Below, in pieces: positions 8,113 through 63,178 of a DNA stretch of 64,000 nt (its first letter is position 1; every line of letters begins with the position of its first letter). The stretch is from a virus. The notes under the pieces are model-generated. The model was given only the letters and a program-made list of their open reading frames with translations, was not told the origin of the DNA and ran no database searches. Made by a program: the position numbers and the translations under genes. The stretch lies in the IMG/VR virus record IMGVR_UViG_3300027754_005988, positions 62,001-126,000 of that record; one strand, given 5' to 3'.

Positions 8113-8499
8113 ATGGCTGAAGGACGTTATATAAACATAAATTACCCATTTAGGAATAGTCCAAATGGATTTTTCTTAGAAATGAATTCTGATGACAATT
8201 CAGCTATTAAAGCTGACCTTGTACATTTAATACTAACAAGAAAAGGTCAAAGACTTTATTTACCAGACTTTGGCACTGATTTAGTTAAATTCATATTTGA
8301 CCAAAATGATGACATCACATTAAGTTTAGTTAAAGAAGAAATAAAAACAGTTGTTAAAAAATACTTACCAAATCTAACGATAACAAATTTAACAGTTACT
8401 TATTCAGATGAAAGTGAATATGCTGCTGTTATTACTATAGAATATATAGTAACTGAAGGAGCATTTCAAACAAGTGACTCTGTAGTTATTAATCTTTAA
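8113..8499 (+). CDS. 25: Baseplate wedge protein gp25-like (GPW/gp25 family)
   Basis: A small baseplate wedge component that in contractile tails links the inner baseplate to the sheath. The 128-residue protein has the family pattern: NSDDNSAIKADLVHLILTRKGQRLYLPDFG, in which the LLT..G.R...PdfG core is clear, then VKEEIKTVVKKYLPNLTI and a C-terminal strand pair. The length matches T4 gp25 (132). It opens the tail block. Its stop codon overlaps the stop of the antisense homing endonuclease by three bases. Confidence 0.88.
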   Translation: MAEGRYININYPFRNSPNGFFLEMNSDDNSAIKADLVHLILTRKGQRLYLPDFGTDLVKFIFDQNDDITLSLVKEEIKTVVKKYLPNLTITNLTVTYSDESEYAAVITIEYIVTEGAFQTSDSVVINL

Positions 8500-10133
8500 C
8501 ATAATAAACTATATCTTTTATTACCAGAGTCATATATTCTATATATTCCTCTTGTTAACATAATAGAGTGTTCTGATTCATTTTCATCAAAACCTTGTTT
8601 AACTAGAATATCTTTCCTAAATTTGAAGCGATATTCTCTTTTTTTATTTAATATATAGTAATAATTAGGTATTGTATCGTATATAAATTTAAAACCTAAT
8701 TTCTCATATAAATCACCTAGTGACCATCTTCTATCGGCATAACTAATAATTTCGATAGGTTTATATGTTTTAATAAAGTGTTTTAATAATTTGTCAGCAC
8801 CGCCAATAACATTTGTGTTTAATTTATTACAAAATCTAACTAATTCATATAAACCTTCTGATGAATTATGACCCATTATCTTACGTAATTTACCAAATGT
8901 CATAATACTAACTAATTCATCATTATAATATAGTCCTAATTTTATTTTAGAATTAACATTACCCTGTAGATGATTTTTATTTAAAAATATTTTTGTTTCT
9001 TTAGAAGATACTTCTTTTATTTCTGTTTTTCTTCCATATATCTTATAATTGGTCATACCAAGTATATTACGTATTCTAGATTTAACGATATCTTGTTTAT
9101 GTACCCACTCATCTTCAAATATATGTACTAACTGTATACCTAATTGTTCACATTCATTTGTTTTATTTAAATGATAATCATTATTTAAGTATTCTTCTGA
9201 GTGCCAATAAAGACCATTAAATTCAACAGCTATTTTTTTAGAAGGTATGTATATATCTAATTCTTTACCATTAAGTATTGATTTATTGTTTTCAATCATA
9301 TCAATATTTAGTGACTTAATAAAATTAGTTACTTCTTTTTCATTATTAGAAACTCCGTTATTAGAACATTTAGCACAACCGTTACCATTTCTATGTGAAT
9401 CACAACGCTGTTCAAATTCACCATGTATAGGACATATTATTTTTACTTTATCTGTTATTTTATTATAATCGACAAAAGAATAATCATATTTATTATTATG
9501 TACAAAAGAACAAAAAGTATTAAATGTTTTAGTGTCATATATTTTTTCTAAACATTTAAAACAACCTTGTTGTTTTGATATATGGTTATTTGGTGTTTGT
9601 TCAAAAACACCGTGTTCTGGGCAAATAATTTTAATTTTATCGTGTGATGTATCATATTTCACTAAAGAATAATCGTATTTATTATCATGAATTTCTTTAG
9701 CTTTTAATATAAACATGTTAGTATCCATTTTACTAGTACCACCACAATACAAACACCCTCTACCATTTAAATGATTACTAGGTATTTGTTCAAAAATACC
9801 GTGCTCTCGACAAATGATTTTAATTTTTGTTTTTGAATTAATGTAGTTAACAATAGAATAATCGTATACATCACCATGAACTTTTTTTGCGTCTGAAATA
9901 AATACATCTATATTTTTTCTTTGTTTATTATGTAATATGGTAGTTGAACACTTAGGGCAATTTTGTTTTGCATTAACATGTTTACTTGGTGTCTGTTCAA
10001 AAACACCATGTATTGGACATATTATTTTAATCATTGAATCATTTTTAAAATATTCAACCAATGAATAATCATACCTATCACCATGAATTTTCTTTGCTGA
10101 TAAAATAAATTCTTTAGATGTTTTCTTTTTCAT
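8496..10133 (-). CDS. Free-standing homing endonuclease with four zinc-finger-like repeats and a Vsr-like nuclease domain
   Basis: A mobile DNA endonuclease lodged antisense between two baseplate genes. Residues 1-258 hold four repeats of about 62 residues with the pattern GDRYDYSLVxY...KIKIICPxHGxFEQxPxxH...GCxKC, consistent with the DUF723 type; each has paired Cys/His, probably for DNA recognition. A nuclease domain with KELDIYIPSKKIAVEFNG and YWHSEE (about 285-310) resembles the Vsr/EDxHD-type PD-(D/E)XK fold. A C-terminal acetyltransferase-like or recognition region follows, with YADRRWSLGDLYEKLGF. No damage is visible. The target is likely a neighbouring gp25 or gp6 allele in related phages. 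Confidence 0.88.
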   Translation of the reverse strand: MKKKTSKEFILSAKKIHGDRYDYSLVEYFKNDSMIKIICPIHGVFEQTPSKHVNAKQNCPKCSTTILHNKQRKNIDVFISDAKKVHGDVYDYSIVNYINSKTKIKIICREHGIFEQIPSNHLNGRGCLYCGGTSKMDTNMFILKAKEIHDNKYDYSLVKYDTSHDKIKIICPEHGVFEQTPNNHISKQQGCFKCLEKIYDTKTFNTFCSFVHNNKYDYSFVDYNKITDKVKIICPIHGEFEQRCDSHRNGNGCAKCSNNGVSNNEKEVTNFIKSLNIDMIENNKSILNGKELDIYIPSKKIAVEFNGLYWHSEEYLNNDYHLNKTNECEQLGIQLVHIFEDEWVHKQDIVKSRIRNILGMTNYKIYGRKTEIKEVSSKETKIFLNKNHLQGNVNSKIKLGLYYNDELVSIMTFGKLRKIMGHNSSEGLYELVRFCNKLNTNVIGGADKLLKHFIKTYKPIEIISYADRRWSLGDLYEKLGFKFIYDTIPNYYYILNKKREYRFKFRKDILVKQGFDENESEHSIMLTRGIYRIYDSGNKRYSLLC

Positions 10134-57500: not shown

Positions 57501-58505
57501 ATGGCAAAAAGAGATTATTATGAAGTGTTAGGTGTAAATAAGAATTCCTCTGCTGATGAGATTAAGAAAAAATACAGACAGTTAGCCAAGGAATTACACC
57601 CAGATAAGAACAATGGTAGCAAAGAAGCTGAGGAGAAGTTTAAAGAAGTTTCTGAGGCTTATGAAATACTTTCCGACAACGATAAAAAGGCTAACTATGA
57701 TAGATTTGGTCATAGTAATGGTAGACAAAGCCAACAGGCCCAATATCATAGAACACAATATAGACAACCAGAAAGATTTGGTGAGAATATGCAGATGGTT
57801 GTTAAATTAACCTTAGATGAAATATATACTGGTGTTAAAAAAAGATTTAAGTACAATAGAAATGACAAATGTGAATCCTGTGATGGACATGGTGGTCATG
57901 GTAAAAAAGATTGTGGGACTTGTGGTGGTAGTGGGTTGGTAACACATGCGATTAATACACCTTTCGGTCAATTCTCAAATATAACACAATGTTATTCATG
58001 TAATGGTATCGGTTTAACATATGATAGTCAATGTGGTACTTGCAATGGTTCTGGTGTTAATGTAAAAGAAGAATTAATAGATATTGATATACCATCTGGT
58101 GTTATGGAAGGTATGTCGTTTATTATGCATGGAAAAGGTCATGCGATAAAAGCTGGTAATTCAGGTGATTTACATGTTAAAATAATGGAATTGGCGCATA
58201 AGGTTTATACTCGTAGCGGTAATGATTTAAAAATGGTTTTAAAACTAACATACCCACAATTGGTTTTAGGTAGTAAAGTTGAATTAGAAACCATAGACGG
58301 TAGTAAAATAAGGATAAACATACCAGAATATAGTGATATAGGTAATGATTTAAGAATACAACATAAAGGATTAAAACATTACAATAACGAAGAACGAGGA
58401 GATATATTGATTAAATTGGGAATTGATATGCCAAAAGAATTAGATGATGATACAAAAGCTGTTATTATTGATTTAAAAGAAAAATTAGAGCAAATAGAAA
58501 AATAA
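57501..58505 (+). CDS. dnaJ: DnaJ (Hsp40) chaperone
   Basis: A complete Hsp40 of 334 residues. The J domain has HPD at 33-35. A short Gln/Arg linker replaces the usual Gly/Phe-rich region. The zinc domain has all four CxxCxGxG modules ([24 protein letters not shown] and CGTCNGSG). The C-terminal substrate domain is intact. It should stimulate host DnaK and hold unfolded clients. It heads the window's protein quality control cluster and has a host-type promoter. Confidence 0.95.
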
Positions 58506-59344: not shown

Positions 59345-60061
59345 ATGAATTTTACTAACGAATTTAGAGATTATGCTATTAAGCATATGGGGGTTTCTTC
59401 AATGGAATTATATTATTGGGAACAATTACAAGATAATATATATAATTCTACTAAAGTGTTTGGTAGTATGACACCTATGATTCTAGAAGAAAGAGAATTG
59501 AGAGTAACACAAATGTCAGTTTTCGATAGATTGATGATGGACCGTATTATTTGGTTAGCTGGTCCAGTTAATGATAGAATGAGTACAGTCGTACAAGCGC
59601 AGCTAATGTTCTTAGATAACTTAGAGGTAAAAGATATAACCCTTCATGTAGATAGTCCAGGAGGAAGCGTTAAAAGCGGTTTATCGATAGTTGATGTTAT
59701 GGATTATATTTCATCTGATTTGGTTACTATTAACACTGGGATGGCTGCATCTATGGGTAGTATTTTATTAGGTGCTGGTACAAAGGGTAAAAGACATACA
59801 CTTCCACATAGTAGAGTGATGTTACACCAAGTATCTACTGGTGCATCTGGTAATCTACAAGATATTAGAGTATCAATTGCTGAAGGTGAAAAATACAATA
59901 CTGAGTTATTCAGATTATTAGGTAAGTATACTGATAAAGACCCTAAACAAGTTTTAGATGATACCAATAGAGATATGTGGCTTAATGCTGATGAGGCTTT
60001 AGCTTATGGTATCGTTGATAATATTATAACAAAAAAACCCACTAAAAACGGTAAAAAATAA
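59345..60061 (+). CDS. clpP: ATP-dependent Clp protease proteolytic subunit ClpP-like
   Basis: A serine protease of peptidase family S14. Ser136 lies in NTGMAASMGSILL and His161 in RVMLHQVSTG, with an Asp in VLDDTNRDMWL. DSPGGSVKSGLSI is the usual oxyanion strand. At 238 residues it has a longer N-terminus than bacterial ClpP, with ELYYWEQLQDNIYNS-like extra helix. It could pair with host ClpX/ClpA or act as a capsid maturation protease, as ClpP-like enzymes do in some phages. The operon has a host-type promoter and lies beside tmRNA, which favours protein turnover. Confidence 0.9.
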   Translation: MNFTNEFRDYAIKHMGVSSMELYYWEQLQDNIYNSTKVFGSMTPMILEERELRVTQMSVFDRLMMDRIIWLAGPVNDRMSTVVQAQLMFLDNLEVKDITLHVDSPGGSVKSGLSIVDVMDYISSDLVTINTGMAASMGSILLGAGTKGKRHTLPHSRVMLHQVSTGASGNLQDIRVSIAEGEKYNTELFRLLGKYTDKDPKQVLDDTNRDMWLNADEALAYGIVDNIITKKPTKNGKK

Positions 60062-60534: not shown

Positions 60535-60564
60535 TTGCTTTTTATTAAAACTATAGTATATTTG
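60535..60564 (+). promoter_or_regulatory. ssrA: Host-type promoter of the tmRNA gene
   Basis: TTG at 60535-60537, a 19-base spacer and TATATTTG at 60557-60564. The tmRNA 5' end lies 26 bases after the -7 element, so a short 5' piece would be trimmed, presumably by RNase P. Confidence 0.87.
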
Positions 60565-60589: not shown

Positions 60590-60946
60590 GGGAATGCCAA
60601 GGTATTGATTAGGTATAGTCGTAAATGGTAAGCATGTAGTGCTAGATTGGAAGCACTTAAATCTGTCTATTAAACAATTGAATTGACAACGATTTCATCG
60701 TATCAGAAAATTTCCTTAACGAGTGCAGCATGTCTGTAATCGAGGGAGAGGTAGCAGCTGCCTAACAACTGTAAATGGTGGTAATCCACTAAATGATGGT
60801 ATCCCATCAATGGTAGTAATCTACTAGTGGGGCCAAAACCACTATAAAAGTAAGGAAGCTTTCGGATAGTTATAAAACTATGACCTAAACATGTAGAAGG
60901 CTATTGAAGAATATTTAAGACAGGAGTTCGAGTCTCCTCATTTCCA
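60590..60946 (+). ncRNA. ssrA: tmRNA (transfer-messenger RNA)
   Basis: The tRNA-like domain is complete: 5' GGGAATG pairs with 3' CATTTCC in a 7-bp acceptor stem. Pair three is G-U, the alanine identity element. The T arm (AGGAG, loop TTCGAGT, CTCCT) is at 60922-60938 and the discriminator is A60946; CCA is not encoded (ACA follows). GGTAAGCATGTAGTGC near the 5' end and CTAAACATGTAGAAGGC near the 3' end match conserved tmRNA segments. A small hairpin ACGAT-TTC-ATCGT (60691-60703) may be part of pseudoknot 1. The candidate tag ends EGEVAAA before TAA at 60763-60765. Length, about 357 nt, is normal. Confidence 0.92.
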
Positions 60947-60971
60947 CAGTGAATGTTTTGTGCTTTGTTGA

Positions 60972-60984: not shown

Positions 60985-61072
60985 CAAAATTCTTTACAGA
61001 TTCTTCCCAACAATCACCTTATGGGATAGAAATTATAACCTCTAGTAAGTCGCTTTACTAGAGGTTTTTTTA
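60985..61072 (+). ncRNA. Possible late small RNA, about 85 nt
   Basis: The stretch between the TATTTAT box (60972) and the terminator hairpin contains no open frame of note. A short RNA could be produced here, ending in a stable 12-bp hairpin. It might equally be only the 3' trailer of the tmRNA transcript. Confidence 0.3.
61037..61072 (+). terminator. Strong rho-independent terminator after the tmRNA
   Basis: A perfect 12-bp stem AACCTCTAGTAA/TTACTAGAGGTT with a six-base loop GTCGCT, followed by a T run. It is among the longest stems in the window. Confidence 0.9.
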
Positions 61073-61916: not shown

Positions 61917-62174
61917 ATGGAAAAATTAACTAATAAAAATGTTGAGGATTTTATTTATTCGTATCCAACAAAAAACAAAGAGGGATTTATTGCGTCTGAA
62001 ATAAATGACATATTAGAAAAGTATAGTATCGATAAAGATAAGTTCTATACTGCTTTAGGGGTAAATACATGTATGCTTATTGATGGTGAAGTTGTTACTT
62101 ATCATTGTGATGTACTTAAAGGGTTACGATGCGTAATTGAAAATAGAGAACAGAATTTTTTTGAATGGGATTAA
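61917..62174 (+). CDS. Small hypothetical protein, 85 residues
   Basis: Residues 1-50 look like a winged-helix-like or helical unit, FIASEINDILEKYSIDKDKF, followed by YTALGVNTCMLIDGEVVTYH and a charged end. Such a size and arrangement would suit a small regulatory protein, but no match is recognised. It overlaps the kinase-like gene only if the latter used the first ATG. Confidence 0.6.
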   Translation: MEKLTNKNVEDFIYSYPTKNKEGFIASEINDILEKYSIDKDKFYTALGVNTCMLIDGEVVTYHCDVLKGLRCVIENREQNFFEWD

Positions 62175-62761: not shown

Positions 62762-63178
62762 ATGACAGTAACAGAAAACAGTAATGTTAAAGTACATTAC
62801 ACAGGTAGATTAGAAGACAATACAATTTTTGATTCATCAGAAAATAAAGAACCATTATCCGTTGAATTGGGTAAAGGTGTATTAATTCCTGGTTTTGAAA
62901 AAGGGTTACAAGGTTTAAGTGTTGGTGAAAAAAGAACAGTAACCATACCAGCAGAGGAAGCTTATGGGCCAGTTAGAGTAGAAATGATTCAAGAAGTTGA
63001 AAAGAAATTTGTACCAGAAACAGTTGAAGTAGGTCAACAATTAACAGCTCAAGGACCACAAGGTCAAATGGTTGTTGTTGTAACTGAAGTTAAAGAAGAA
63101 TCAGTTGTTTTGGACGCTAATCACCCATTAGCTGGAAAAGCTTTAATATTTGACTTAGAAGTAGTTGAAATAGCTTAA
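62762..63178 (+). CDS. FKBP-type peptidyl-prolyl isomerase, SlyD-like
   Basis: 138 residues. The split FKBP domain is clear: NVKVHYTGRLEDNTIFDSSE, ELGKGVLIPGFEKGLQGLSV then GEKRTVTIPAEEAYGP and the closing LDANHPLAGKALIFDLEVVE. The residues between (about 83-118) form the inserted chaperone flap typical of SlyD. The metal-binding His-rich tail of E. coli SlyD is absent. It would speed proline isomerisation and prevent aggregation of newly made phage proteins. It has a host-type promoter, a terminator and no operon partners. Confidence 0.93.
   Translation: MTVTENSNVKVHYTGRLEDNTIFDSSENKEPLSVELGKGVLIPGFEKGLQGLSVGEKRTVTIPAEEAYGPVRVEMIQEVEKKFVPETVEVGQQLTAQGPQGQMVVVVTEVKEESVVLDANHPLAGKALIFDLEVVEIA

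Follow-up and report, generated by a model that had tools for sequence, protein, structure and literature searches.

Gene content of the locus

The window (the whole stretch of viral DNA analyzed, 64,000 nucleotides, positions 62,001 to 126,000 of IMG/VR record IMGVR_UViG_3300027754_005988) carries a one-piece tmRNA (ssrA) gene shortly downstream of genes for a DnaJ co-chaperone and a ClpP serine peptidase, all on the same strand (Table 1). The window ClpP matches ClpP structures in the PDB (E 1.9e-46), and its Ser/His/Asp triad aligns with that of PDB 3q7h. The FKBP-type isomerase encoded further downstream is a candidate folding partner. A baseplate wedge protein is also encoded in the window. 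We considered and rejected a role for this ClpP as prohead (head maturation) protease: a separate PF03420 gp21-type (T4-type) protease is present in 9 of 12 contigs, so head maturation does not require ClpP, and the clpP neighbors are dnaJ and the tmRNA gene, not capsid genes.

Table 1 Features in and around the tmRNA gene (window coordinates).
Feature	Position	Strand	Basis or remark
DnaJ co-chaperone (J, central and C-terminal domains)	57501–58505	+	PF00226, PF00684, PF01556
Phage ClpP (serine peptidase), tmRNA-linked	59345–60061	+	PF00574, 192 bits
Bacteroidetes-type promoter, TTG-N19-TATATTTG	60535–60564	+	Sequence
tmRNA (ssrA), one-piece, mature RNA without encoded CCA	60590–60946	+	RF00023 full-model match, 41 aligned homologues
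Acceptor stem 5' strand, GGGAATG	60590–60596	+	G3 pairs with U70 at 60943
PK1 pseudoknot, AGTGCT/AGCACT and AGATT/AATCT	60638–60664	+	Sequence
A at −4 of the resume codon	60681	+	A in 41/41 homologues
Tag reading frame, resume codon GAC, DNDFIVSENFLNECSMSVIEGEVAAA, stop TAA at 60763–60765	60685–60765	+	
T arm AGGAG-TTCGAGT-CTCCT (intact), acceptor 3' strand CATTTCC and discriminator A	60922–60946	+	
Intrinsic terminator, stem-loop then T run	61037–61066	+	90 nt beyond the tmRNA 3' end
FKBP-type peptidyl-prolyl isomerase	62762–63178	+	PF00254, 81.6 bits

Two side observations concern the surrounding DNA and the ClpP relatives. A lone 545-aa ORF on the minus strand (8496–10133), amid plus-strand structural genes, resembles by eye a repeat-bearing protein of the homing-endonuclease type. 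A ClpP 70% identical to the window protein occurs in the single-cell genome of Prochlorococcus sp. AG-409-L21 (locus L195, QCKH01000004.1); this contig and the viral record IMGVR_UViG_2716884754_000002 are both 83,794 bases long, and QCKH01000004.1 probably represents phage DNA within the single-cell assembly.

Detection and anatomy of the tmRNA

An earlier sequence-only reading had described a complete phage tmRNA with a G3-U70 alanine signature and had named a covariance search with the Rfam tmRNA model as a check. This search returned a match at 60590–60949 (+) of 70.2 bits (E 2.8e-25), covering model positions 1–374 of 374 and exceeding the RF00023 gathering threshold of 47 bits, although Bacteroidota tmRNAs score higher (105–159 bits). 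No second RF00023 match was found in the whole 126,969-base record. The folded RNA has a minimum free energy of −94.1 kcal/mol (z −3.0) and is more stable than every shuffle. The acceptor stem GGGAATG/CATTTCC forms seven pairs including G3-U70, and the T arm and the conserved segments GGTAAGCATGTAGTG and ACATGTAGAAGG are present in the correct order, as had been described. The discriminator A is followed by CAG, so CCA is not encoded, again in line with the earlier description. PK1 stem 1 belongs to the RNAalifold consensus and shows compensatory changes, while PK1 stem 2 was read by eye; of the folding of PK1 to PK4 proposed as a check, PK1 stem 1 is supported, and hairpins are present 3' of the tag frame. 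The A at −4 of the resume codon corresponds to A86 of E. coli tmRNA.

The gene had also been credited with its own host-type promoter and its own terminator, and both are recovered here. An equivalent Bacteroidetes-type promoter lies at most 200 nt upstream of 32 of the 41 homologous tmRNAs described below, against 0.04 expected per region, a comparison that overstates independence because the sequences are related. The terminator scan found two terminators where 0.2 were expected. Together with covariation across the homologues, which strengthens the case, these features confirm 60590–60946 as a real tmRNA gene, as judged from sequence.

ARAGORN reported no tmRNA in the window. It detects 22 of the 41 homologous tmRNAs and misses the other 19, and since Rfam and the homologues agree, we take its silence as a limit of the tool. 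A check by ARAGORN alone would wrongly have spoken against this tmRNA, and censuses based on it undercount phage tmRNAs.

A clpP-linked tmRNA family in viral contigs

Searches of IMG/VR with the window ClpP yielded 80 loci and searches with the tmRNA segment GGTAAGCATGTAGTG yielded 39. From IMG/VR contigs at least 41 distinct homologous tmRNAs were obtained, almost all shortly 3' of a phage clpP; in 51 loci, the strictest motif search places the tmRNA 84–1974 nt 3' of clpP, with both genes in the same orientation. No relative turned up when the INPHARED phage collection was searched at the DNA level. Full-length RF00023 matches were observed in 38 of 48 long clpP-bearing phage contigs, 35 of them above the gathering score. 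For the present clade, this contradicts the earlier view that there is no reason to think a tmRNA routine in T4-like phages of Bacteroidetes.

All 41 homologues show complete pairing in both the acceptor stem and the T stem. Acceptor pairs 1–3, including G3-U70, are invariant (41/41), whereas pairs 5–7 and 49–50 vary among three to six pair types. RNAalifold, applied to 38 of the 41 tmRNAs, gives 44 consensus pairs, 25 of them with double compensatory change. CCA is encoded in four of the 41 only.

Two further contigs are worth noting. The 380-kb phage contig G033 contains two tmRNAs whose tags differ, GNEFDIDENFLDTASVEVGTGEVAFA and GNILENATVGHFVAEDAAVVA, at loci L181 (G033:C1:82000-84000) and L121 (G033:C1:326439-329835). 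The 735-kb huge phage LR756501 (locus L175) has a weak RF00023 match of 21 bits, of doubtful status as a tmRNA, in whose frame a tag of 33 aa with the end DLVLA would be read.

A long, conserved tag

The main point of the locus, which the sequence-only reading missed, is the tag frame. The window tag has 26 residues, ending in GEVAAA followed by TAA. The open frame spans 25 or 26 codons in 40 of the 41 homologues and 21 in the other, the stop is TAA in 40 of 41, and the consensus across the aligned tmRNAs is [DG]NDF[IV]VSENFL[DN]EA...GE[LV]A[VLF]A. An independent scan of IMG/VR with the tag-core DNA gave 44 stretches, of which 42 encode the long tag. The pN/pS ratio of the tag frame is 0.43 (25-aa set) or 0.53 (26-aa set), compared with 0.95–1.52 in the two remaining frames, both of which are interrupted by stops in almost all sequences. 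As low a ratio was obtained in 2 of 200 column shuffles, a figure that is no clean probability because the sequences are related. By these sequence measures, the tag frame is under purifying selection.

The tag C-terminus is mostly AVA in the family, with AVV, ATV and ELV also seen; alanine occupies the last position in 36 of 41 tags and position −3 in 38. Since this end is not the usual LAA, degradation of tagged products is not assured.

Bacterial host tags have about nine residues. In Bacteroidota genomes with ClpP relatives, the tags that ARAGORN resolved (GENNYAMAA, GENNYALAA, GADNYALAA, GADNFAFAA and similar) have 8–9 aa and mostly end in A[LM]AA; one host call (locus L220) did not resemble a tag. 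These host tags bear on the origin of the gene. Integration at ssrA is frequent among temperate phages, which may carry pieces of the gene (PMC9004378), as might be expected if the window gene were a captured host ssrA or assembly contamination. We reject this explanation, to which we give almost no credence: the gene recurs next to clpP at one and the same place across dozens of viral contigs, no such tag occurs among the Bacteroidota tmRNAs read, and the contigs encode a T4-type prohead protease and the window a baseplate wedge protein. Moreover, the Bacteroidetes MAG G050 has its own tmRNA and SmpB and, on a separate phage-like contig of 254 kb, a further tmRNA (tag GNTTFWSLVNETVNTPVTEELLAA) together with SmpB and ClpP.

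The tags also bear on whether the phage tmRNA simply adds rescue capacity during host mRNA breakdown, using host SmpB, with its tag read by host ClpXP and clpP serving otherwise. Phage tmRNAs with neither ClpC nor SmpB, or only one of them, on the same contig do exist (the contigs are fragments), and the tag shares with ssrA tags an end made up of small hydrophobic residues. However, with Bacteroidota tags of 8–9 aa, a tag read by the host need not keep 25–26 aa and a SENFL core. Lak phages, in which ClpP and SmpB are present, keep a short, host-like tag (DDEI[DE]FRMAA), so the short solution is open to phages, and the strong clpP linkage also speaks against this explanation. We consider this explanation unlikely.

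SmpB and a ClpC-type unfoldase in larger relatives

The sequence-only reading had not noted the neighboring clpP and dnaJ, nor had it anticipated the SmpB and ClpC unfoldase of relatives. SmpB was found in 9 of 48 related contigs (E 1e-45 to 1e-55), mostly adjoining genes for a metallophosphoesterase and a phage sigma factor. Eight of the nine phage SmpBs group in a single supported clade (98/93) that is separate from Bacteroidota SmpB, so they are not recent acquisitions from hosts. ClpC-type double-AAA+ proteins of about 820–850 aa, with AAA_2 and ClpB_D2-small domains and Walker motifs, were found in 10 of 49 records, and each of the six contigs of at least 300 kb is among these. They contain a [VM]GF segment where the ClpP-binding loops presumably lie. 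An identity as ClpX (TIGR00382) was tried and dropped, as matches were weak only and the proteins turned out to be of the ClpC type. tmRNA, SmpB, ClpC and ClpP occur together in four of the six contigs of at least 300 kb (G009, G012, G016 and G041, the tmRNA match of G041 being 38 bits, below the gathering score); of the remaining two, one has neither tmRNA nor SmpB and one has no SmpB. Thus, relatives of up to 430 kb encode SmpB, a ClpC-type unfoldase and ClpP, and the clade can carry a near-complete pathway for trans-translation and tag disposal.

Several details of these genes were also recorded. The ClpC gene of G016 is interrupted by about 2.8 kb of additional DNA (G016:C1:234257-239587), its second half lying in a 564-aa open frame, which suggests a homing element, an intron or an intein. 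The smpB frame of the 430-kb contig G041 (L155, 1232-1917) overlaps a small upstream ORF that appears by eye to encode a PTH2-type peptidyl-tRNA hydrolase, another enzyme of stalled translation. PHROG family phrog_6791 (‘unknown function’) matches phage SmpB with 169 bits (L151:1492-1932) and could be annotated.

SmpB and ClpC were not found in the window's own 127-kb fragment, which holds the tmRNA, ClpP and DnaJ. This fragment ends 4.9 kb downstream of clpP and holds 121 kb upstream of it, while in relatives SmpB lies 27–134 kb downstream of clpP, and ClpC lies 147–160 kb upstream in G012 and G009. Since these positions fall outside the fragment, and since the close large relative G002 (ClpP 82% identical) has both genes, it is likely that the window's phage encodes SmpB and ClpC, a prediction made from gene positions.

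The same genes bear on whether the tag is degradative at all. Ribosomes could be freed and their products marked with a tag poorly recognized by host proteases, or with one that sends them elsewhere; the departure of the C-terminus from LAA fits this, and the strongly conserved tag interior suggests a binding partner. However, phage ClpP is the immediate neighbor, ClpC is encoded in large relatives, and the alanines at the last and −3 positions still resemble an ssrA-type degron. A non-degradative tag therefore seems improbable to us.

Comparison with known systems

Phage tmRNAs have been described previously, in mycobacteriophages such as Bxz1, in Bacillus phage G and in methylophage Melnitz (PMC4131195, PMC9004378), and a 2021 ARAGORN census found tmRNA in 402 of 18,146 phage genomes (PMC9004378). 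The Melnitz tmRNA is two-piece, whereas the present family is one-piece, clpP-linked and found in T4-like phages, with a long conserved tag. Huge phages with tmRNA and SmpB were reported by Al-Shayeb 2020 (PMC7162821), which lists both without tags and whose text does not mention ClpP; ClpP has been noted in jumbo phages (PMC7824862). Huge phages and Lak phages resemble the present clade in their large genomes with SmpB, ClpP and tmRNA. The tag in the 636-kb huge-phage record LR756504, DNVNSFEQSILNELFAPVEMAVAA, is long and resembles that of the present family; the Lak phages differ in their short one.

With bacterial one-piece tmRNAs (RF00023) the family shares the alanine-type tRNA-like domain, PK1, the A at −4, the tag frame and its stop. 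It differs from them in the length of its tag (25–26 aa against the 8–9 aa resolved in Bacteroidota) and in the tag end (GE[LV]A[VLF]A against A[LM]AA), and it is often missed by ARAGORN and mostly lacks an encoded CCA. The nearest precedent, as cited in PMC8138137 and PMC9382460, comes from Mycoplasma/Mesoplasma, whose lengthened ssrA tag reportedly switched to Lon as its protease (Gur and Sauer 2008; Ge and Karzai 2009). Both cases would combine a longer, diverged tag with a protease other than the usual ClpXP; that system is cellular and Lon-based with a tag ending in NYAFA, whereas the present one is viral and probably uses ClpC/ClpP.

In the open-access literature, we found no report of the present tmRNA family, its long tag or a coupling to ClpP/ClpC. 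Phage tmRNA and phage SmpB are each known; what is new is the tmRNA family, with its long tag unlike those of hosts and its linkage to clpP, and the ClpC and ClpP set.

Proposed mechanism and implications

Charging by AlaRS, SmpB-dependent ribosome entry, template switching, tag addition and ribosome release are established steps of tmRNA biology. By analogy with these, host nucleotidyltransferase would add CCA to the phage RNA and host AlaRS would then charge it through the G3-U70 stem. With SmpB, it would enter ribosomes stalled on broken mRNA and become the template at the GAC resume codon, adding Ala and the 26-residue phage-specific tag, and the ribosome would be freed for phage translation. 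The tagged products would most likely be degraded by the phage Clp protease, with ClpP encoded beside the tmRNA and ClpC and SmpB elsewhere in larger relatives. We therefore consider it probable, given the RNA anatomy, covariation, tag conservation and gene linkage observed, that the locus encodes a functional phage one-piece tmRNA whose tagged products are most likely destined for a phage-supplied Clp protease; that the tagged chain goes specifically to phage ClpC-ClpP is our inference.

A role in counter-defense, in which the phage would carry its own tmRNA (and SmpB) because the tmRNA or mRNAs of the host are cleaved by host defenses or by nucleases of the phage, would suit T4-like phages that carry spare translation parts, and the relatives do carry many tRNA-like partial matches to RF00023. 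Because it leaves the long conserved tag unexplained, we regard this role as very improbable.

A stricter form of the Clp-based reading is that these T4-like jumbo phages possess self-contained, orthogonal trans-translation, the tag added by phage tmRNA and SmpB being read solely by phage ClpC-ClpP. We put this forward only tentatively, as somewhat doubtful; if true, ribosomes and amino acids would be recovered under viral control, independently of host ClpXP. Such a virus would carry almost all the dedicated components of a cellular quality-control pathway together with its own tag code, paralleling Mycoplasma, where, according to the accounts cited above, a longer tag and a different protease evolved together. 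The question of why phages carry tmRNA thereby becomes testable, since the tag sequence predicts the protease, and the phage tag and Clp protease are a candidate orthogonal degron/protease pair.
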